Below are positions 887 through 40,010 of a DNA stretch of 64,000 bases, piece by piece. The stretch comes from an uncultured bacterium (GTDB taxonomy: Bacteria; Bacteroidota; Bacteroidia; Chitinophagales; Chitinophagaceae), in assembly GCA_903826405.1 (NCBI GenBank), contig CAIKEH010000005.1:62001-126000 (forward strand), in the 5' to 3' direction. A program made the position numbers and the translations under genes. Each line of letters begins with the position of its first letter. The stretch's first letter is position 1. The notes beneath the pieces are model-generated. The model was not told where the DNA came from. It was given only the letters and a program-made list of their open reading frames with translations, and ran no database searches.

Positions 887-3800
887 ATGAATCTTTCAGA
901 ACTCAGTATACGCCGCCCCGTTCTCGCAGTTGTTTGTTCCATCGTGATCATTATTTTCGGTGCCATCGGCTATAACTTCCTCGGAGTACGGGAATATCCT
1001 GCGATAGATCCCGCTGTGGTGAATGTCCGAACCGCATATACTGGAGCGAATGCGGAGATCATCGAGACGCAGATCACGGAGCCATTGGAAAAAGCGATCA
1101 ACGGCGTTCCAGGGGTCAAAAACATCACTTCTTCCAGCACCCAGGGCAACAGTTCCATCACGGTAGAATTCGAACTTAATGTAGAACTCGATAAAGCAGC
1201 CAATGACGTGAGGGAGAAAGTGGGGCAAGCCCTGATAAGTCTTCCTCAGGATATAGATGCCCCGCCCATAGTTGCCAAGCAGGATGCAGATTCCGATCCC
1301 ATCATCTTCATGCAGCTGCAGAGTAATATCCGAACCTTGCTCGGGCTGAGTGAGTTCGCCGAGAATGTAGTTCAGGAGCGACTGCAAACCATCCCTGGAG
1401 TGAGCTCGGTGAATGTGTTCGGCCAGCGTATAGCCATGAGGCTCTGGTTCGATCCTGCTAAACTGGCGGCATACCGACTCACAATCCAGGATGTAAGGGT
1501 GGCGCTCGACCGGGAGAACATTGAACTTCCCGGCGGAAAAGTCCGCGGCAATATGACCGAACTGACAGTCAAAGCATACGGCAAACTACTATCGGAAGAT
1601 GATTTCAACAACCTAATCATTTTACAGGATGCAGGCCGGCTAGTGAGGTTTAAGGACATCGGTTATGCCGTTATCGGACCGGAGAATGAAGAAAGCTCAA
1701 CCAGAAAGAACAACGTTCAGGCCGTCTCTTTAGCCATCATCGCCCAACCCGGATCCAACCAGATCGCGATCGCCGACGAAACATATAAAAGATTGGCTCA
1801 GATCAAGACGGACCTGCCCAAAGACATCATCCTTGAAGTGGGATTTGACCGCACGACGTTCATCCGAAAAGCTGTGGCCGAAGTGAAAGAAACCCTGATC
1901 ATCGCCATCAGTCTGGTGGTGATCATCATATACCTTTTCTTCCGCGAGTGGTCCATTGCATACCGCCCACTGATCGACATCCCCGTTTCGTTGATCGGCG
2001 CGTTTTTCATCATGTACATTTCCGGTTTTTCCATCAACGTACTGACGATGTTGTCCTTGGTACTGGCGACAGGCCTTGTTGTGGATGACGGAATCGTAGT
2101 GACGGAGAACATCTTCAAGAAGATGGAAATGGGGATGGATAAACGGACAGCGGCCAAGGAAGGTTCAAATGAAATCTACTTCGCGGTCATCGCGACATCC
2201 ATCACCCTAGCCATCGTTTTTCTCCCTATCATATTCCTGCAAGGTTTCGTGGGCAGGCTGTTCCGGGAATTCGGGATCGTAGTAGCCGGAGCCGTTCTCA
2301 TATCTGCATTCGTATCCCTTTCACTCACCCCCGTACTCAACATTTACCTCACCCGAAAAAACATCCATGACCATTCCTGGTTCTACAGAAAAACAGAACC
2401 CTTTTTCCGATGGATGGAGGATGGATACAAGAACTCCCTGAATGCCTTCATGCGCAAACGCTGGCTGGCACTCGTCATCGTAGCTATATGCATGGGCATT
2501 ATCTATTTCACCGGAAAGGGACTGCCCTCGGAATTGGCACCTCTGGAAGACAGGAACAGGCTTCGGGCAGCCGTCCTAGCTCCCGAAGGAACCGATTTCG
2601 ACTATATGGATAAGGTAACCTACGATGTATGCCAGAAGGTGCTTGACTCGGTCAACGAACGTTATATCGTTTTGTCCTTCGCCCCCAGTTTTAATGGAGC
2701 CGGCGGTGTGAATTCAGCATTCGTGAGTGTCGGACTCACTGATGCAACACAAAGAAAGAGATCACAGAATGAGATAGCCCAACAAATGTCCAGAATGTTC
2801 AAAGGGTACACCAATGTCAGGGTCCTGACCATTCAGGAACAGACCATCTCCGTTGGAACCGGTGGTCGAGGACAATTACCTGTTCAATTCGTGGTACAGA
2901 ATCTCGATTTCGACAAACTAAGAACAAGGATACCTCAATTCATGGAACAGGTTACCAAAAGCCCGGTATTCCAGGGCTTTGACGTGAACCTCAAATTCAA
3001 CAAACCAGAACTGCAGGTGACCATAGATCGTCTAAAAGCCAGCGAATTGGGTGTATCCATACTGGACATCACCAATACGCTTCAACTCGCGCTGAGCGGA
3101 CGCAGATTCGGCTATTTCATCAGAAACGGGAAACAATATCAGGTCATTGGACAGGTGGATCGGAGCAACCGGGACGAACCGGGAAACTTGAAGGCATTCT
3201 ATGTACGTAGTCGTAACGGGGAACTGATCCAATTGGACAATCTGGTCAGGATCGTGGAATCTGCCAACCCTCCCACCCTGTATCATTTCAATAGATTCAA
3301 GTCTGCCATCGTTCAGGCCGGACTTGCACCAGGAAGAACATTGGGTGAAGGAATTCAAGAGATGCGGAAGATCTCAGAGAAGGTTCTTGACGAATCGTTC
3401 ACCACGGCCCTCAGCGGACCATCAAGGGACTTTGCAGAAAGTTCCTCAAACACTTCCTTTGCCTTCATTCTGGCACTGGTGCTCATCTTCCTGGTATTGG
3501 CTGCACAATTCGAAAGTTTCGTGGATCCGTTCATCATCATGATCACCGTTCCGCTTGCACTCGCCGGAGCGGTACTCAGTCTTTCCGTCTTTGGTCAATC
3601 ATTGAATATATTCTCCCAGATCGGCATCATCATGCTGATCGGATTGGTCACCAAGAATGGTATCCTGATAGTTGAATTCGCCAACCAGATAACAGAAAAA
3701 GGAGAGAATAAGGTTAAAGCTGTCGTCGAAGCTTCAGTCGCCCGGCTGCGTCCGATCCTGATGACTACATTGGCAACAACACTTGGTGCGCTTCCGATTG

Positions 3801-3955
3801 CGCTGGCTTTCGGTTCAGCAGGCAAGGCCCGCGTACCATTGGGAATAGTCATCGTCGGAGGAATGATGTTCGCACTCGTACTCACCTTGTTCGTTGTCCC
3901 AGCATTGTACAGTTATATTTCGAGGAAAAAAACGGCGTCCGCACATGAAGAGTAG
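887..3955 (+). CDS. RND multidrug efflux permease, HAE1 (AcrB/MexB) family
   Basis: This is the proton-driven inner-membrane pump of the tripartite efflux system, 1022 residues, the usual family length. It starts at ATG with the typical short cytoplasmic N-terminus before TM1 (MNLSELSIRRPVLAVV). The TM4 proton-relay aspartates are present as a VVDDG motif (D400, D401), and the TM10 lysine is in GLVTKNGIL (K923). Two large periplasmic porter/docking loops follow TM1 and TM7, as in AcrB. The 3' end overlaps the TolC start by 11 bases, which implies translational coupling. The sequence is most like the HAE1 drug-pump branch and not the metal-exporting CusA branch, since it lacks the CusA methionine pattern. 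The substrate is unknown. No local repressor gene is visible downstream. Confidence 0.96.
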   Translation: MNLSELSIRRPVLAVVCSIVIIIFGAIGYNFLGVREYPAIDPAVVNVRTAYTGANAEIIETQITEPLEKAINGVPGVKNITSSSTQGNSSITVEFELNVELDKAANDVREKVGQALISLPQDIDAPPIVAKQDADSDPIIFMQLQSNIRTLLGLSEFAENVVQERLQTIPGVSSVNVFGQRIAMRLWFDPAKLAAYRLTIQDVRVALDRENIELPGGKVRGNMTELTVKAYGKLLSEDDFNNLIILQDAGRLVRFKDIGYAVIGPENEESSTRKNNVQAVSLAIIAQPGSNQIAIADETYKRLAQIKTDLPKDIILEVGFDRTTFIRKAVAEVKETLIIAISLVVIIIYLFFREWSIAYRPLIDIPVSLIGAFFIMYISGFSINVLTMLSLVLATGLVVDDGIVVTENIFKKMEMGMDKRTAAKEGSNEIYFAVIATSITLAIVFLPIIFLQGFVGRLFREFGIVVAGAVLISAFVSLSLTPVLNIYLTRKNIHDHSWFYRKTEPFFRWMEDGYKNSLNAFMRKRWLALVIVAICMGIIYFTGKGLPSELAPLEDRNRLRAAVLAPEGTDFDYMDKVTYDVCQKVLDSVNERYIVLSFAPSFNGAGGVNSAFVSVGLTDATQRKRSQNEIAQQMSRMFKGYTNVRVLTIQEQTISVGTGGRGQLPVQFVVQNLDFDKLRTRIPQFMEQVTKSPVFQGFDVNLKFNKPELQVTIDRLKASELGVSILDITNTLQLALSGRRFGYFIRNGKQYQVIGQVDRSNRDEPGNLKAFYVRSRNGELIQLDNLVRIVESANPPTLYHFNRFKSAIVQAGLAPGRTLGEGIQEMRKISEKVLDESFTTALSGPSRDFAESSSNTSFAFILALVLIFLVLAAQFESFVDPFIIMITVPLALAGAVLSLSVFGQSLNIFSQIGIIMLIGLVTKNGILIVEFANQITEKGENKVKAVVEASVARLRPILMTTLATTLGALPIALAFGSAGKARVPLGIVIVGGMMFALVLTLFVVPALYSYISRKKTASAHEE

Positions 3956-5252
3956 TACCCTCATCATCATCTTTTTCGCCTGCCTACTGGCAGGTCAGGC
4001 ACAGGATTCTTCGCTTACTGCCCAGGAAGCCGTAGATATCGCCCTGCAAAACAATCTTTCCATCCAGATCGCCAAGTCCGACCTGGATATCTCCAGGATA
4101 AACAACAACTGGGGGAATTCGGGCCGCTGGCCCATCGTCACCGCAGGATTTGGCAATAACGAATCACTAGTCAATCTGGACCAGAAACTGTCTAATGGCA
4201 CGGAGATCGTCAGAAACGGAACCACCCAGAACACCACCAATGCCAACATCACTGCAACTTGGAGGATATACAACGGTATGCGTGTCAGGGCCACAAAAAG
4301 CAGATTCGAAGAATTGGAGAAGATAGGATCCATAAATCTTAGACAACAGGTTTCATCGGTCACATATGATGTATTGCTCACCTATTACAATATCATTCGC
4401 AACAAACAGCAACTAGTGGCTTTGAGTGCCATCATCGATCTTTCCAAGGAAAGACTGAAGATCGCAGAAACAAGGTTCAATGTGGGTAGCGCCGCCAAGA
4501 CCGATATGCTCCAGGCTCAGACTGACCTTCATGAACAAGAAATTGCCATCTTGGATATCATCAGGCAACTGGAGCAGTCGAAGGCCACATTGAACAACCT
4601 GCTCAAAAGATATCCTAGTACACCTCTGGACACAAAGGATTCCTCATTCCATGTTCAGATGATCAAAATCGATGATTTCATAAATAAATTGGATTCACAA
4701 AACTATGACCTGCTTCGGGCGCAAAGGGACCGTGAGGTATTGGCACAGGAACGAAGAATCATCAATTCAAACCGACTACCGGTGATCTCCCTAAACAATG
4801 TGAACAGCTTCAACAGGACAATGGCAAGCGCCGGCCTTTTCCTGACCAATCAAACCTATGGACCGAATCTGGGTGTCAGCGTGGGTATTCCCATATACAA
4901 CAGCAATATCACCAAGACACAACTGAAGGTTAATGAAGCACAGCAGAAACAACAAGTGCTGCAGACAGATCTCTTGAGATCTCAATTGCAGCGAGACATG
5001 TTCATAGCTTATAGTGAATATCAAGATGCCCTGAAAACACTGGAAAAGGAAAAACTGAATGTAAAAGCCGCTGAAGAGAATAATTTCATCGCCACCGAAC
5101 GCTTCAAGAAACTACAAAGTAATTCGATCGAACTCAGGCAGGCTCAACTCAGCCTCATTGATGCTCAGGACAGACTAATCAATGCCGAATTCCGTGCCAA
5201 GGTGGCGGAGACAACCATTGAATTCCTTTCAGGGGAAGTTGGTGTTCATTAA
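3945..5252 (+). CDS. TolC family outer-membrane efflux channel
   Basis: This is the outer-membrane exit duct of the RND system, 435 residues from the chosen start. I chose the ATG at 3945, not an in-frame ATG 51 bases upstream, because it gives a clean signal peptide (MKSSTLIIIFFACLLAGQAQ) and a short 11-base overlap with the pump gene. The protein shows the two OEP repeats of the family, beginning near SLTAQEAVDIALQNN and near residue 235, with long coiled-coil helices rich in Q, E, K and R (for example ETRFNVGSAAKTDMLQAQTD, characteristic of OEP proteins). It is the last gene of the operon. A hairpin lies about 50 bases downstream, oriented for the convergent lepB gene. Confidence 0.94.
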   Translation: MKSSTLIIIFFACLLAGQAQDSSLTAQEAVDIALQNNLSIQIAKSDLDISRINNNWGNSGRWPIVTAGFGNNESLVNLDQKLSNGTEIVRNGTTQNTTNANITATWRIYNGMRVRATKSRFEELEKIGSINLRQQVSSVTYDVLLTYYNIIRNKQQLVALSAIIDLSKERLKIAETRFNVGSAAKTDMLQAQTDLHEQEIAILDIIRQLEQSKATLNNLLKRYPSTPLDTKDSSFHVQMIKIDDFINKLDSQNYDLLRAQRDREVLAQERRIINSNRLPVISLNNVNSFNRTMASAGLFLTNQTYGPNLGVSVGIPIYNSNITKTQLKVNEAQQKQQVLQTDLLRSQLQRDMFIAYSEYQDALKTLEKEKLNVKAAEENNFIATERFKKLQSNSIELRQAQLSLIDAQDRLINAEFRAKVAETTIEFLSGEVGVH

Positions 5253-5302
5253 CGGGAAAACCGGACAGAATAACACTGCAGAATTGAAGAAACTAGCATT
5301 TC

Positions 5303-5329
5303 AAAAAAAATCCCGGATGTCCGGGATTT
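5303..5329 (-). terminator. Rho-independent terminator of lepB
   Basis: A perfect 9-bp stem (AAATCCCGG / CCGGGATTT, 5308-5316 and 5321-5329) has an ATGT loop. Read on the minus strand it is followed by a run of eight T (A-run 5303-5310 on plus), so it terminates signal peptidase transcription. It may also slow the convergent efflux operon transcript. Confidence 0.85.
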
Positions 5330-5350
5330 CAAATTATCGATGCATGTGAT

Positions 5351-6877
5351 TTACTTTATGCTCCGAAAGAGTCGGCTCCACCTCGGACCATGCTGCCAAC
5401 TGAACCAGATCAGGGAAGCCTTTCCCACGATATGATCCTCAGGGACAAAGCCCCAGAAACGGGAGTCCTGGGAATTATGCCGGTTATCACCCATCATCCA
5501 GAAATAATCCATTTTGAACGTGTAACTGTCCGTCTCCACACCATTGATCCGTATTTTTCCATTCAGCTCTTCGAATCGATTCCCCTCATACACCTCGATC
5601 ACACGTCTATAGAGAGAAATATTCTCCGGTGTTAGTTTTATCGCAGTTCCTTTCTTGGGAATCCAGAGTGAACCGAAATTATCTTCAGACCATTTGAAAT
5701 GAGCGGAATCATAAGGGAAAGTGTTGCCGAAACCAGCGGTATTTAGGTCGCGAACTACCGAACCCGGAATGACAAAAGGGAAAGCCTTTACTTTATCCAC
5801 CTGTGATGCCGTCAGATTCATCCTCCAGGTATTGGGTTTCTCAGGTACCTGAATAACATCACGCTGCTCGGGGTCATCCAGACTTATGTTGAGTTCTTCC
5901 TTCAGGAAATCTTCCGAAAAAAAATCTTTACCGTTGGTTGATACGAAGTAAAAAGTCTCCGATGCCGGAGGTATATCATTGATCTTCCCATTCACGTACA
6001 AAGTACCATCAATGATACGTATCGAATCACCCGCAATGGCTACACAACGTTTTATGAAATTCTCACGTTTATCAACTGGTCTGACAAGAATATCATCCCT
6101 TTCGGCAAGCAGGGAAGCTCGATTCCCCCCTCTGGCCTCGTACATTCTCAGGTAATCGTAATAGTTCACCTCGGACTGGAATTCAGAAATGACGGTATCA
6201 CCAACTGGATAATTGAAAACAACCACATCATTGCGCTTTACAGGGCTCGCGAAAACCCTTGTATAGGGTATTTTCAACCATTCTAAATATGACTTGGAAC
6301 CCGTGACAGGCAAAGTATGGTGTACGAAGGGAAAAGAAAGTGGCGTATTCGGCAATCGAGGACCAAAGCTCGATTTGCTCACAAACAGAAAATCATTGAC
6401 CAGAAGCGTCTTTTCCATGGAACCCGTAGGTATGGTATAAGCTTCAAAGACGAAAGTCCGGATGATGGTGGCGGCAACAACGGCAAAAACCGCGGCATCA
6501 ACCCATTCCCTTGCGGCGGATTTCTTGTAGTTTTTAACGATGTTAAGACCTGCATAGCGCTCATTCTTGGAAAAGCCCAAGTAGGGGAAATAAAGGAAAG
6601 GCAGGAAAACCGCAGCAGCATGATGAAGCAGGGAAAAGCGTCCGAAGTGTTCCACAAACCGTATACAGATCCAGATGGTGACGAACTGCCCCACGATCGG
6701 GATGAACTGGAGGAAAAACCAATAGGTCCGAAGCTGCATTTTCTCCACCATGAGCCAGCCATTATAAAAAGGGACGAAGGCTTTCCAGGCGGTTATGCCC
6801 GCTTTTTTGAACATCCCATATAACCCGATGTGGAATCCTATAGTCGTGAGAATGAAAATGATCCAACCCATGCTCAT
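5351..6877 (-). CDS. lepB: Signal peptidase I, long Bacteroidota form
   Basis: Type I signal peptidase, which cuts Sec signal peptides on the periplasmic side of the inner membrane. At 508 residues it is far longer than E. coli LepB (about 324). Residues 1-100 form an extra hydrophobic module with several membrane spans, resembling DUF5684-like N-termini. The catalytic part starts near residue 120 with a further span. The nucleophile is S153 in TIPTGSMEKTL, and the general-base lysine is K276 in NFIKRCVAIAGD. The GDNRHNSQDSRFWGFVP box is near the C-terminus. An insertion of roughly 100 residues lies between the IAGD box and the final box, as seen in Bacteroidota homologues. The gene converges on the efflux operon and is followed by a strong terminator. 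Confidence 0.96.
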   Translation of the reverse strand: MSMGWIIFILTTIGFHIGLYGMFKKAGITAWKAFVPFYNGWLMVEKMQLRTYWFFLQFIPIVGQFVTIWICIRFVEHFGRFSLLHHAAAVFLPFLYFPYLGFSKNERYAGLNIVKNYKKSAAREWVDAAVFAVVAATIIRTFVFEAYTIPTGSMEKTLLVNDFLFVSKSSFGPRLPNTPLSFPFVHHTLPVTGSKSYLEWLKIPYTRVFASPVKRNDVVVFNYPVGDTVISEFQSEVNYYDYLRMYEARGGNRASLLAERDDILVRPVDKRENFIKRCVAIAGDSIRIIDGTLYVNGKINDIPPASETFYFVSTNGKDFFSEDFLKEELNISLDDPEQRDVIQVPEKPNTWRMNLTASQVDKVKAFPFVIPGSVVRDLNTAGFGNTFPYDSAHFKWSEDNFGSLWIPKKGTAIKLTPENISLYRRVIEVYEGNRFEELNGKIRINGVETDSYTFKMDYFWMMGDNRHNSQDSRFWGFVPEDHIVGKASLIWFSWQHGPRWSRLFRSIK

Positions 6878-35971: not shown

Positions 35972-37093
35972 TTGGAAAAACATTTACACATCGTTTGCCT
36001 CGACGTACCCTACCCACCGGATTATGGCGGAGCCATGGAGATGTTTTATAAGTTGAAGTCGCTGCACAAGTCCGAGATCATGATTCATCTGCACTGTTTC
36101 ACCTACGGTCGTGGAAGACCATTGGAATTGGAACAGTTTTGCAGATCCATCCACTACTATGAACGGGACCGATCCAACTGGCAGTTGTTTTCCTCCTTGC
36201 CAAACATCGTGCGTTCCCGGCGATCCGCCGATCTCATCAACAGGCTCCAAGCCGATACACACCCCATATTGTTCGAAGGCATACATACCACATTCCCACT
36301 ACACGCACAGAAATGGCCTGGTCGAAAAATAGTCATCCGACTACATAATAAGGAAAATGAGTATTATGCTCAGCAAAGCAGGCAAACCCGTTCCATCTTG
36401 CAGAAGTTATATTATCGTACGGAAAGCATGAAGTTGCAGTCGTATGAGAAGACCCTGATCCCCAATTATCCGGTTGCTTGCATATCTGTCCAGGAGACAC
36501 GGCATTGCAGGGAAGTGCTGGGTGCCCAAAAGGTTTTTGAACTCCCGCCATTCGTTGGATGGGAAATACCGCTTTGCCTGGAAGGAACGGGATCGTTCTG
36601 CCTCTTCCATGGAAATCTTTCCGTAGCGGAGAATGACCGTTCAGCCAGATGGCTGCTGGAAAAAGTATTCGCCAAAATGGATGTCCCGCTGGTGATCGCA
36701 GGAAAGAACCCATCTCCAAAACTGATCAAACTCGCCCACCGCTGGCAACATACCTGTATAGTCTCCAACCCTACCGCAGCGGAAATGCAGGATCTCATTC
36801 GCAAGGCACAGATCCATGTACTGCCTTCTTTTACTACGACGGGCATAAAATTCAAATTATTGAATGCCGTATTTTGCGGAAGGCACGTCGTGGCAAATCA
36901 AGCCATGGTAAAGGATAGCAGGCTCGAATCAGCCTGTCACCTCACAGAGAATGCGGCAGGTTTCCAATCTGTCATCATGCAATTATTCAGGAGATCCTTT
37001 TCAGAAGAGGAAGTGGAATTGCGATCGGGTCTTTTGCAGAACTACTACGATAACGAGGGACATGCCCGGCAACTCATCAACTGGCTATACTAG
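35972..37093 (+). CDS. Glycosyltransferase, second of the pair
   Basis: A 373-residue protein starting at a TTG that touches the previous stop codon (0-base gap). The N-terminus (HLHIVCLDVPYPPDYGGAME) matches the first strand and glycine-rich loop of GT-B glycosyltransferases, which supports this start. The C-terminal half has FCLFHGNLSVAENDRSARWL, VPLVIAGKNPSP, and the FKLLNAVFCGRHVVAN segment, where many relatives have ExxxxGxPV. The canonical acidic residue of that motif is therefore replaced (KLLNA), and catalysis by the usual mechanism is uncertain. The 3' end overlaps the convergent ftsE by 17 bases. Confidence 0.83.
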   Translation: MEKHLHIVCLDVPYPPDYGGAMEMFYKLKSLHKSEIMIHLHCFTYGRGRPLELEQFCRSIHYYERDRSNWQLFSSLPNIVRSRRSADLINRLQADTHPILFEGIHTTFPLHAQKWPGRKIVIRLHNKENEYYAQQSRQTRSILQKLYYRTESMKLQSYEKTLIPNYPVACISVQETRHCREVLGAQKVFELPPFVGWEIPLCLEGTGSFCLFHGNLSVAENDRSARWLLEKVFAKMDVPLVIAGKNPSPKLIKLAHRWQHTCIVSNPTAAEMQDLIRKAQIHVLPSFTTTGIKFKLLNAVFCGRHVVANQAMVKDSRLESACHLTENAAGFQSVIMQLFRRSFSEEEVELRSGLLQNYYDNEGHARQLINWLY

Positions 37094-37763
37094 CGTTGTC
37101 CCACACCTTGCCCTGTTCCGTCTTGATGGTCCGCGCAGGAAATTTGTTGATGACCATGTAATCATGTGTAGCCATGACGATGGTGGCATGGTAATCCCTG
37201 CAAATCTGGAACAACAGATTCATGATCTCATCGCTGGTTTCCGGATCGAGATTGCCAGTAGGTTCGTCGGCCAGAATAAGTTTGGGGGAATTCAAAAGTG
37301 CCCGGGCAATGTCCACCCGCTGTTGCTCACCCCCCGAGAGTTCGAAAGGGAATTTGAAACCTTTTGTTTTCAGACCCACCTTGCCCAACACATCACCGAT
37401 CTTCTCTTCAATCAGTTTCTCGTCCTTCCACCCTATGGCATTCAGCACGAACTTGAGGTTCTCATGCACGCTTCGATCGGTCAGCAACTGGAATTCCTGG
37501 AATACAATCCCGATATTTCGCCTCAGGAAGGGAACCGTCTTCCAGGTCAGGTCTTTGAGATTGAAACCGACCACCTGACCTTCACCTTCCGTGAGTGTCA
37601 ATTCCCCGTAAAGCGTTTTGAGCAGACTTGACTTGCCGGTGCCGGTCTTGCCCACTAGATATACGAACTCGCCTTTTTCCACTCCAATATTGACATCACT
37701 GAGGATCAGGGACTTTCCCTGGTAGATATTGGCATGCTTCAATTCCAGAATGTACTCAGCCAT
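37077..37763 (-). CDS. ftsE: Cell-division ABC transporter ATP-binding protein FtsE
   Basis: ATPase of the FtsEX complex, which links the divisome to peptidoglycan hydrolase activation at the inner membrane. It has 228 residues; the ATG at 37763 was chosen because it starts the domain directly ([20 protein letters not shown]). Walker A is [10 protein letters not shown], the Q-loop is [10 protein letters not shown], the ABC signature is [15 protein letters not shown], Walker B is LILADEPTG and the H-loop is MATHDY. The FtsE-type segment [20 protein letters not shown] is present. No ftsX gene is adjacent, unlike in many bacteria; in Bacteroidota the two are often separate. LolD-type ABC proteins are a close alternative. 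Confidence 0.88.
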
Positions 37764-37861: not shown

Positions 37862-37906
37862 AACTAAAAATATAGTTGATTAACTAAAATTTTAGTTTTA
37901 GGTTTG
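37862..37906 (+). promoter_or_regulatory. Promoter with two BlaI-like operator palindromes
   Basis: A 16-bp perfect palindrome (AACTAAAATTTTAGTT, 37882-37897) and an imperfect copy (AACTAAAAATATAGTT, 37862-37877) are centred 20 bases apart, two helical turns. Both keep the ACTA...TAGT arms of BlaI/MecI operators. A Bacteroidota promoter overlaps them: -33 TTG (37876-37878) touches the first operator, the second lies in the spacer, and -7 TAGGTTTG (37899-37906) follows after a 20-base spacer. The start codon is 17 bases further on. This fits repression by promoter occlusion, autoregulating the blaI-M56 operon. Confidence 0.72.
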
Positions 37907-37923: not shown

Positions 37924-38295
37924 ATGTCCATCATCAAGACTCTCACCAAGGCCGAAGAGCAGATCATGCAGGCGATCTGGAAACTGGACCGCGCCTTCCT
38001 CCGCGAGATCGTGGATGAGATGCCCGACCCAAAACCGCACCAGAACACGGTGGCCACCATCGTGAAGATCCTGGTCGAAAAGGAATTCGTGGGCATCCGC
38101 GTTTTTGGTCGCACACACCAGTACCATCCCCTGATCAGCAAGGATGCTTATTCCAAGCTCACCATGAAAAGTCTGGTGAAAGGATATTTCGAAGGGTCCT
38201 TCAGCAATGCCGTATCCTTCATGGTCAAAGAGAACAGTCTGAGCGTCGAGGACCTTGAATTGCTTCTCCAACAACTCAAAAAAGGCAGAAAATGA
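37924..38295 (+). CDS. BlaI/MecI/CopY family transcriptional repressor
   Basis: A 123-residue winged-helix repressor. The N-terminal DNA-binding domain (LTKAEEQIMQAIWKLDRAFL, then a recognition helix around KPHQNTVATIVKILVEKEFV) is followed by the wing and a C-terminal dimerisation helix rich in leucine (LSVEDLELLLQQLKKGRK). In BlaI/MecI proteins the BlaR1 protease signals cleavage near the linker at an Asn-Phe or similar bond. A VSFM segment near residues 95-100 is a candidate here, but the exact cleavage residues cannot be confirmed. The stop overlaps the start of the M56 gene by 4 bases. Two palindromes upstream are the probable operators. Confidence 0.92.
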   Translation: MSIIKTLTKAEEQIMQAIWKLDRAFLREIVDEMPDPKPHQNTVATIVKILVEKEFVGIRVFGRTHQYHPLISKDAYSKLTMKSLVKGYFEGSFSNAVSFMVKENSLSVEDLELLLQQLKKGRK

Positions 38296-40010
38296 TCGTC
38301 TTCTACTCGTATCTCGTCAAGGTGATGCTTTGCTCGGGCATCCTTTTCGGATATTACCTGCTCGCGTTGCGCGACAAGCCGCACCACCGATGGAATCGCT
38401 TCTTCTTGCTGGCAGCCACAACAGTTTCCATGGTGATCCCGCTTCTGCGTTTCAGCTTCCCATGGGAAAGCCAGAGCAATTCTGGCTCCACTCAATGGGT
38501 GCAATTGCTCCAAGTGGTCAATGACAACGAACATTTCATCGAGGAGGCTTCGATCGCGGGAACAGGTTCGACCATCTCCTGGCTCTCGCTGGCCTATATG
38601 GCCTTTTCCATCATCCTGATGGTGCGCCTAATCTACCCATACTTAAGATTGACTGCACAGGTCCACCAGGCGAATTTGAAAAAAGTGGATGGATTCACGA
38701 TCGTGAGCACCACAGATGCACAGTCACCCTTCACCCTGTTCCGATACATATTTTGGAACGAACACCTGGACTTACACGAACCCGCTGCCCGCCAAGTGCT
38801 GGAGCATGAGAAGGTGCATGTACGTGAAGGACACAGTCTGGACAAACTCTTCCTCAATGCATCCCTTGTGGTGTTCTGGCCCGTGCCTTTCCTCTGGCTC
38901 ATCCGCCGCGAGCTGGGCATGGTGCATGAATTCATCGCTGACGAAAGTTCATTTCCGGGACAGGACACTGCGTCATTTGCCGCCATGGTCCTGCAAGCAG
39001 CCTACCCCGGCCATCCTCTCGACCTCACCAGCTCATTTTTTCAATCACCCATAAAAAGACGAGTCCGCATGCTCATGAAAAATCATTCCTGCAAAACCGG
39101 TCACATCGGCCGCTGGATGACCCTGCCGATTATTTTGTTGATCGCCGCAGCCTTCACGTTGAGGCCGAATACTACTCATTCTATTAATACAACCGGGCAA
39201 CATGTTCGGAAAATTACGGTCGTCATAGACGCAGGCCATGGTGGATCGGATGCGGGAGTAAACATCGCCAAAGGCACACAGGAAAAAGACCTGACCCTCT
39301 CCATCGCCAGAAAGATCAAATCCCTGAATTCGAACGACAGTCTGGACATCATTCTGACCCGATACGACGACATCACCATGGGAGTCAAGGAACGTGTGGA
39401 ATTCGCTTTGGGTCATCATGCCGATGCATTCATTTCCATTCATATGAATGCGGCACCTGAACAAAACGACCAGAGCAATGGTATGGAGATGTATATCTCT
39501 GCCCGCAATAGACAAATGGAGCAGCAGAGCATCCTGCTCGGCAGTCTGCTCGGAAAAAGATTGTCCCAATCATACACGGTTGCCAAAGACCTGAAAAAAA
39601 GAGAAAAACCAGGCGTATGGGTTCTTGATGCTCCGGATATCCTCTACCCGGCTGTTTTGCTGGAATGCGGTTACTTGACCAACCCCAAGGATCTGACCTT
39701 CCTACTTGAAGAAAAAAATCAGACGGCCATCGCCAAGGATATCCTGAAAGCTTTGGAATATTATACAGATGAGTGGGATAGGACCCTCATCTTAGACCCA
39801 AACTACAAAAACCAAGCCCTGTTCATTCTGGATGGAAAGGAATTGCCTGCTGGCACCACGGCGGACAATCTGAATAATAAGATCAAGGCGGAGGATATCG
39901 ACCGGATCGATGTGCTGAAAGGAGATAGTGCCATCCATAAATATGGGAGTAAGGGAAAATATGGAGTGATCGAGATCACTTCCAAAATAAAAGCGGCCCG
40001 GGATCAATAA
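38292..40010 (+). CDS. BlaR1/M56 metalloprotease fused to N-acetylmuramoyl-L-alanine amidase and plug-like tail
   Basis: A 572-residue fusion. Residues 1-290 form a BlaR1-like integral-membrane M56 zinc protease with several spans. It carries the HEKVH motif (H172, E173, H176) and a downstream RRELGMVHEFIADESS segment (E213 the likely third ligand). After the last span (about 275-290) comes a full amidase_3 domain with all four key residues: H316 in VIDAGHGGSD, E331 in QEKDLTLSIA, H384 in SIHMNAA and E458 in VLLECGYLTN. Residues of about 500-570 resemble a TonB-receptor plug fragment (DIDRIDVLKGDSAIHKYGSK), a tail common on Bacteroidota M56 proteins. By topology the amidase should be periplasmic. 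The gene overlaps the blaI stop by 4 bases and the convergent AIR synthase gene by 7. Confidence 0.9.
   Translation: MIVFYSYLVKVMLCSGILFGYYLLALRDKPHHRWNRFFLLAATTVSMVIPLLRFSFPWESQSNSGSTQWVQLLQVVNDNEHFIEEASIAGTGSTISWLSLAYMAFSIILMVRLIYPYLRLTAQVHQANLKKVDGFTIVSTTDAQSPFTLFRYIFWNEHLDLHEPAARQVLEHEKVHVREGHSLDKLFLNASLVVFWPVPFLWLIRRELGMVHEFIADESSFPGQDTASFAAMVLQAAYPGHPLDLTSSFFQSPIKRRVRMLMKNHSCKTGHIGRWMTLPIILLIAAAFTLRPNTTHSINTTGQHVRKITVVIDAGHGGSDAGVNIAKGTQEKDLTLSIARKIKSLNSNDSLDIILTRYDDITMGVKERVEFALGHHADAFISIHMNAAPEQNDQSNGMEMYISARNRQMEQQSILLGSLLGKRLSQSYTVAKDLKKREKPGVWVLDAPDILYPAVLLECGYLTNPKDLTFLLEEKNQTAIAKDILKALEYYTDEWDRTLILDPNYKNQALFILDGKELPAGTTADNLNNKIKAEDIDRIDVLKGDSAIHKYGSKGKYGVIEITSKIKAARDQ

Follow-up and report, generated by a model that had tools for sequence, protein, structure and literature searches.

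A BlaR1-type membrane protease fused to an Amidase_3 domain behind blaI: a candidate self-inducing peptidoglycan receptor of the Chitinophagaceae

Architecture of the operon

The window, namely the whole 64,000-nucleotide stretch of DNA analysed here, comes from an uncultured bacterium of the family Chitinophagaceae and contains a two-gene operon on the forward strand. The first gene (37924–38295, +) encodes a 123-residue BlaI/MecI-type repressor, which scores 102.7 bits against Penicillinase_R and matches the solved MecI structure (1okr); it is the only PF03965 match over the cut-off in the source genome, where a second match scores 18.6 bits, under the cut-off. The second gene (38292–40010, +) is one uninterrupted ORF of 572 residues in the ORF list and its translation, and its start overlaps the stop of blaI (ATGA overlap). 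Pfam domains and the alignments of relatives confirm that this gene encodes a real fusion of an M56/BlaR1-type protease with an Amidase_3 domain. An earlier note, made from the DNA letters, had described a single continuous 572-residue frame and a BlaI partner, and both were found, with blaI directly upstream.

The membrane protease part spans residues 1–294 (38292–39173, +), as judged from Pfam, conservation, and hydropathy. The HEKVH motif lies at residues 172–176 and the EFIAD motif at residues 213–217, with the partner residue E213 located within HEFIAD. In the window protein, the Peptidase_M56 match at residues 167–261 scores 25 bits, under the Pfam cut-off of 31, and the relatives L001–L010, which are 35–38% identical to the window protein, score 37.5–51.9 bits. 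C-terminal to this part, the Amidase_3 domain occupies residues 310–489 (39219–39758, +). It scores 130 bits (cut-off 27), and the amidase part of the AlphaFold model matches CwlV with a TMt of 0.87. The zinc ligands H316, E331, and H384 and the catalytic E458 are all present, and are invariant in our first alignment of 11 proteins. Pfam and the alignment bear out the earlier description of an HEKVH protease joined to a four-residue Amidase_3 site, and the amidase, together with a Plug fragment, does stand where BlaR1 has its penicillin sensor. The source genome (3.585 Mb in 55 contigs) contains three Amidase_3 matches and one M56 match, the latter under the cut-off.

A plug-like tail had also been noted. 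A Plug match does exist at residues 507–559 (39810–39968, +): it scores 24.3 bits against a cut-off of 23.9, and its 53 residues correspond to the second half of the Plug model. The match ends 13 residues before the C-terminus of the window protein, with no beta-barrel and no full plug domain. In L001–L010, Plug matches accompany M56 and Amidase_3, and TonB_C is found in nine of the ten, some of these matches being under the cut-off. Among the 125 fused ORFs described below, 36 end no more than 25 residues past the amidase (one of the 36 is cut by a contig end). On account of these almost tailless members, we reject a TonB receptor or energy transducer as a general feature. The tail is a short optional module and no TonB receptor, and it does not define the protein.

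How is the protein arranged in the membrane? BlaR1 is reported to be N-out/C-out, with its protease facing the cytoplasm (accessible part of PMC9834060). In the fusion, hydrophobic stretches lie at residues 8–26, 38–56, 96–114, 186–204, and 272–290, and the hydropathy agrees with an N-out/C-out layout with four full membrane helices, which would place the amidase in the periplasm. The basic residues within 26–36 and 262–275, and their absence from 54–97, fit this layout; residues 291–308, which would be outside, carry three basic and no acidic residues, and are a misfit. An outer loop of about 40 residues lies between the second and third helices of the window protein, and among the fused proteins the linker between the M56 profile match and the amidase has a median length of 14 residues. 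Phe249, located shortly before KRR, is conserved in 118 of the 125. AlphaFold modelled the M56 part poorly, with a mean pLDDT of 56.7 in the whole protein and 49.5 for M56 alone.

The pairing with blaI is general. It lies directly upstream of the fusion in 120 of the 125 loci, four loci have no adjoining BlaI gene, and the fifth is at a contig edge. On the other side of the promoter, a divergent FtsE-like ABC ATPase gene (37077–37763, −; TIGR02673 FtsE, 228.8 bits, cut-off 264.85) is a neighbour only, which could share control with the operon; such a gene occurs in at least 37 of the 125 fused loci, a lower bound given that some loci are short. Clustering of 29 neighbourhoods revealed no conserved third partner gene common to them all. 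The commonest neighbour besides blaI, which from its sequence we take to be lpxB-like, appears in 15 of the 29.

Distribution and origins of the fusion

How widespread is the fusion? We searched 394 sampled genomes of the window's family, Chitinophagaceae, with a profile built from 27 fused amidases (E ≤ 1e-30), fetched the regions of 98 matches with long frames (open frame ≥480) and of 20 chosen from an earlier search, and inspected their ORFs. Full-span HMM matches came split, and the fusion counts rest on the amidase-only profile and the ORF inspection. At least 115 of the 394 genomes carry an M56–amidase ORF, a lower bound that leaves out G044, G230, and G151 (partial, at contig ends), G203 (split in frame), and G079 (the frame ends inside the amidase); 279 genomes have no verified fusion. 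Over all of the loci inspected, the fused frames number 125, of which 115 are from different genomes among the 394, and the set includes ten contigs possibly from the same strains as other sampled genomes, so that not all are from different species. The earlier note had proposed looking for the same domain order elsewhere. Because M56–Amidase_3 recurs in these 125 loci, single-contig genomes among them (e.g., G216, G353, and G141), a frameshift, an assembly join, and a chance read-through are excluded.

G203 is of the same genus as the window's source genome. Its M56–amidase gene lies in two frames (L359, 2400–3892), and the broken gene adjoins a second BlaI–M56 operon, intact in one frame.

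Twenty relatives came from a scan of named genome contigs, and most of them bear the label Chitinophagaceae, Sediminibacterium, or Bacteroidetes. In a phylum sample of 395 genomes, the fusions recognised among the matches listed were all in the window's family. In a class sample outside the family, one-frame fusions occur in at least seven of 395 genomes, and an eighth, G1018, has its M56 part broken in frame; this count is also a lower bound, with loci from the amidase-profile search and two further regions fetched. Two of the class-wide fusions (family code f59) have an M23 endopeptidase domain between M56 and the amidase. In both (L369 and L370, from G954 and G1086), BlaI is followed by this M56–M23–Amidase_3 triple fusion, with two wall-hydrolase domains on one putative receptor.

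Ten further proteins were scanned, nine of them M56 proteins from eight other loci and the tenth a separate amidase after the M56 gene of L011. Neither an Amidase_3 match nor a penicillin-binding domain match was found in the nine unfused M56 proteins, which match Plug and, in most cases, TonB_C, some of these matches being under the cut-off. At L011 (8194–9135) and L017, a separate Amidase_3 gene, of the standalone kind that bears an insert, comes after an unfused BlaI–M56 operon.

Did the fusion arise once? The family's fused amidases form one clade (124 different sequences, SH-aLRT 90), which includes one of the 81 standalone amidases; the gene of this one has blaI, M56, and FtsE-like genes as neighbours (L275/L358). 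The class-wide tree, a quick tree with SH-aLRT only, was built from 61 of the 125 fused amidases, 35 of the 84 family standalones, 20 class standalones, and six class-wide fusions. Four of these six group with standalones across a branch with 97% SH-aLRT, and the other two group with the family fusions. Because the four fall with standalones, the tree is most simply explained by the fusion having arisen at least twice, and one common origin is not favoured. The amidase seems to have been gained and lost often, because the M56 tree contains 16 fused/unfused changes (at least eight by the starred branches), counts that do not tell gains from losses.

Two loci show amidase genes in other arrangements. 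In L358 (G013, 2023–5157), the amidase belongs to the fused lineage and is encoded by a gene of its own, as an anchored protein with one N-terminal hydrophobic stretch; this gene stands between the FtsE-like gene and blaI–M56, and three operator dyads lie between it and blaI. In L367 (G222, 3258–3902), a lipoprotein-like amidase-like gene, with Gln at the first zinc His, lies about 65 bp after the M56–amidase fusion.

Conservation of the two active sites

The protease residues H172, E173, H176, E213, and D217 are each conserved in all 125 fused loci, and so are the amidase zinc ligands H316, E331, and H384. The catalytic residue E458 is kept in 116 of the 125 and is otherwise replaced by Gln (four), Ala (two), or His, Gly, or Asn (one each); its catalytic role is taken from CwlD Glu199, called putative in the accessible part of PMC8496864. 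All protease and amidase residues are kept in the eight fusions outside the family. On the amidase tree, a quick tree, the nine Glu losses are nine separate changes. The Glu is absent in nine of 125 fused frames versus one of 84 standalone Amidase_3 frames (81 different), with a one-sided Fisher p of 0.04 for rows that are not independent and a standalone control that is not random (the best-scoring rows of a search, plus L011 and L017). In the hmmalign alignment, 12–14 of the 84 standalone rows are gapped at key columns; there the Glu was judged by regular expression and by eye, and the zinc ligands are uncounted by the alignment. We read this pattern as zinc binding being essential to the fused proteins, with turnover presumably kept in most and able to be given up. 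The conservation of the catalytic residues favours an active enzyme in most members, which as Amidase_3 proteins would be expected to hydrolyse the MurNAc–L-Ala bond.

Tandem dyads at the promoter

Which genes would the repressor control? Two operator-like dyads precede blaI. Dyad 1, ACTAAAAATATAGT (extended, AACTAAAAATATAGTT), lies at 37863–37876 (+); dyad 2, ACTAAAATTTTAGT, lies at 37883–37896 (+), 20 bp after dyad 1. They are followed by TAGGTTTG at 37899–37906 (+), a match to TAnnTTTG, which we take to be the Bacteroidota −7 element; among 119 promoters, there are 31 such matches 15–17 bp past the start of the last dyad.

The promoter set comprised up to 250 bp before blaI from 120 fused loci, and all gapped 4-bp palindromes with gaps of 0–8 were scanned in the last 150 bp. 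ACTA-N6-TAGT ranks first, occurring in 116 of the 120 loci; the average over five base-shuffled sets is 0.2. Of the promoters, 119 are 60 bp or longer; 94 of these contain two copies, 21 three, two one, and two none, and the spacing is most often 20 bp (69 loci). In the 3.585-Mb source genome, the exact 16-bp AACTA-N6-TAGTT occurs at two places, both at the fusion promoter, and the tandem pair occurs once. One-mismatch boxes give 41 forward matches including the two exact ones, and the reversed-pattern control gives 21 exact and 393 one-mismatch forward matches; the box is therefore under-represented, and the comparison is no enrichment test. A wide BlaI regulon was not seen in this exact and one-mismatch search of the source genome, and further BlaI targets may lie at the one-mismatch boxes.

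The tandem box was found in 19 of 20 chosen genomes, and by coordinates most sites are just upstream of an M56 gene, in G164 and G295 an unfused one. Six further tandem sites were fetched, of which three (L257, L258, and L260) precede a further BlaI–M56 operon without an amidase; L262 lies before an M56 gene with an unconfirmed repressor, and L259 lies inside an ORF. In L261 (G141, 3001–5439), the tandem operator stands before a MacB/FtsX-like permease gene, which is followed by blaI and the fusion, with a divergent FtsE-like gene alongside. The BlaI–M56 operon of L258 (G094, 1621–4011) has three dyads; the gene divergent from it encodes an Nramp transporter with a fused Usp domain.

Because the exact dyad was found only at the fusion promoter, the fusion protein is the predicted target of its own signal. 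This DNA switch site suggests that the protein mainly turns on its own gene, and because the predicted output in the window is the operon itself, the sensor is also the likely effector.

A proposed self-inducing receptor

We lean towards the view that the fusion is an autoregulated, self-inducing receptor of the BlaR1 type, with a peptidoglycan amidase on the periplasmic side in place of the penicillin sensor. The cycle would proceed in the following manner.

Resting state: BlaI would occupy the two dyads over its own promoter, and the operon would be kept low.

Sensing: The amidase would meet its wall substrate, either un-crosslinked or damaged peptidoglycan or stem peptides, and the occupancy of the zinc site, or turnover in it, would be relayed along the fourth membrane helix to the M56 protease on the cytoplasmic side. 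BlaR1 signalling is proposed to start when an outer loop is displaced from the sensor active site (accessible part of PMC9834060); by analogy, a ligand in the amidase site may displace the outer loop, releasing the protease.

Induction and reset: The M56 protease would then cut BlaI, and blaI and the fusion gene would be derepressed, thus producing more amidase. Sensor and effector would be one protein in a closed loop, which BlaI would reset.

The receptor reading is supported by the strong constraint on both active sites in the 125 fused loci, by the blaI gene directly upstream in 120 of them, by the dyads at the blaI promoters, with the exact box of the source genome at this promoter only, and by the probable repeated origin of the fusion. 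Several points count against it. Nine members lost the Glu with the zinc ligands kept, so that catalysis is not needed everywhere. No verified fusion exists in 279 of the 394 family genomes, and M56–BlaI operons without an amidase share the tandem box. The BlaR1 sensor signals by acylation, whereas an amidase makes no lasting covalent adduct that could hold the on state. The topology support is mixed, the M56 models are poor, four loci are BlaI-less, and the BlaI cleavage site is inexact: the site is reported as Asn101–Phe102 (PMC9834060, accessible part), and the window BlaI, aligned to MecI by eye, has no exact Asn–Phe match, with S–F one residue earlier.

Could the amidase be an effector only? 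In this alternative, the protein is a tethered autolysin with a homeostatic brake, and M56 and BlaI adjust the amidase amount in response to another cue, such as the state of the membrane or its lipids, or damage suffered by the protein. The operon being its own only predicted target agrees with this, and the module seems to signal without an amidase in L257, L258, and L260, which bear the same tandem box. Against it stand the place of the amidase, which occupies the sensor position of BlaR1 behind a linker with a median length of 14 residues, and the tree, most simply explained by two or more origins of the fusion; we consider this explanation, with its cue, unlikely.

More doubtful still is a role of the amidase as a ligand maker, in which freed stem peptides would be taken up and trimmed to the gamma-D-Glu-diamino-acid dipeptide, which would loosen BlaI from the DNA. 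Amidases are the enzyme class that frees stem peptides, and in Bacillus licheniformis this peptidoglycan dipeptide is reported to bind BlaI/MecI and destabilise the DNA complex (accessible part of PMC3305447). Nevertheless, this route would make the fusion unnecessary, the nine Glu-less members keep the architecture, and BlaR1 is reported to cleave BlaI directly, with no added component (PMC9834060, accessible part).

The earlier note had also allowed that the amidase fold only binds muropeptides, as a receptor without turnover. The nine separate Glu losses with intact zinc ligands (9/125 fused versus 1/84 standalone) make this fit the Glu-less members better than the window protein, which keeps E458 together with 115 other loci, and as a general account we find it improbable. 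An artefact, whether frameshift, assembly join, or read-through of two genes, has a negligible chance, given the fusion in at least 115 of the 394 family genomes.

Returning to the self-inducing receptor, we tentatively raise the broader possibility of a receptor class. In such a class, the peptidoglycan turnover of the receptor's own amidase would be the signal, and the only regulated operon would encode the receptor-enzyme itself: a self-amplifying, wall-reading autolysin set by BlaI proteolysis. It would have had at least two origins in Bacteroidia, and some members would since have become pure zinc-dependent sensors by decay.

What do BlaR1-like receptors sense outside antibiotic resistance? 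In the present case, the sensor-position domain names a substrate, the exact box is at one promoter, and the circuit consists of two genes. Whether M56–BlaI is at root a system of peptidoglycan surveillance is therefore directly testable. Such a receptor would also show a possible way for a cell to make a lytic enzyme serve as its own gauge.

Comparison with known systems

Our literature search, which had most subscription journals outside its scope, gave no paper on an M56–Amidase_3 fusion among the matches listed. The accessible part of PMC9662197 describes rare M23 proteins that carry another catalytic domain besides M23, namely an Rpf-like, amidase, M56, or NlpC/P60 domain; all of these taken together make up less than 1% of hits. 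The two f59 genomes with M56–M23–Amidase_3 behind BlaI resemble these proteins, whereas the M56–Amidase_3 combination and a sensor role are absent from that part of the account.

In Escherichia coli, FtsEX–EnvC–AmiA/AmiB is a known system linking FtsE and amidases. The amidase beside an FtsE-like gene in at least 37 of the 125 loci is reminiscent of it, but the FtsE-like neighbour is not general. With the Amidase_3 wall amidases of about 180 residues (CwlV, CwlD, LytH, and Nostoc AmiC2), the fused domain shares the fold and the four active-site residues; unlike them, it shares a chain with an M56 protease and has BlaI as a partner.

BlaR1 is the membrane switch that sets off penicillin resistance in staphylococci. 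The BlaR1/MecR1–BlaI/MecI systems of Staphylococcus aureus and Bacillus licheniformis share with the fusion the HExxH...ExxxD gluzincin protease part, the membrane helices followed by a C-terminal domain, the neighbouring BlaI, and the repeated dyads at the promoter. By eye, F249 before KRR also resembles the Ser283–Phe284 autocleavage loop of BlaR1. In contrast, the sensor-position domain of the fusion is Amidase_3 instead of a penicillin-binding domain, the window's two-gene operon includes no beta-lactamase or PBP gene, H181 stands where BlaR1 has Asp210 (by distance from HExxH), and the predicted output is the receptor itself. Lacking the penicillin-binding sensor, which is a defining part, the fusion falls outside BlaR1 in the strict sense; it probably works like one.
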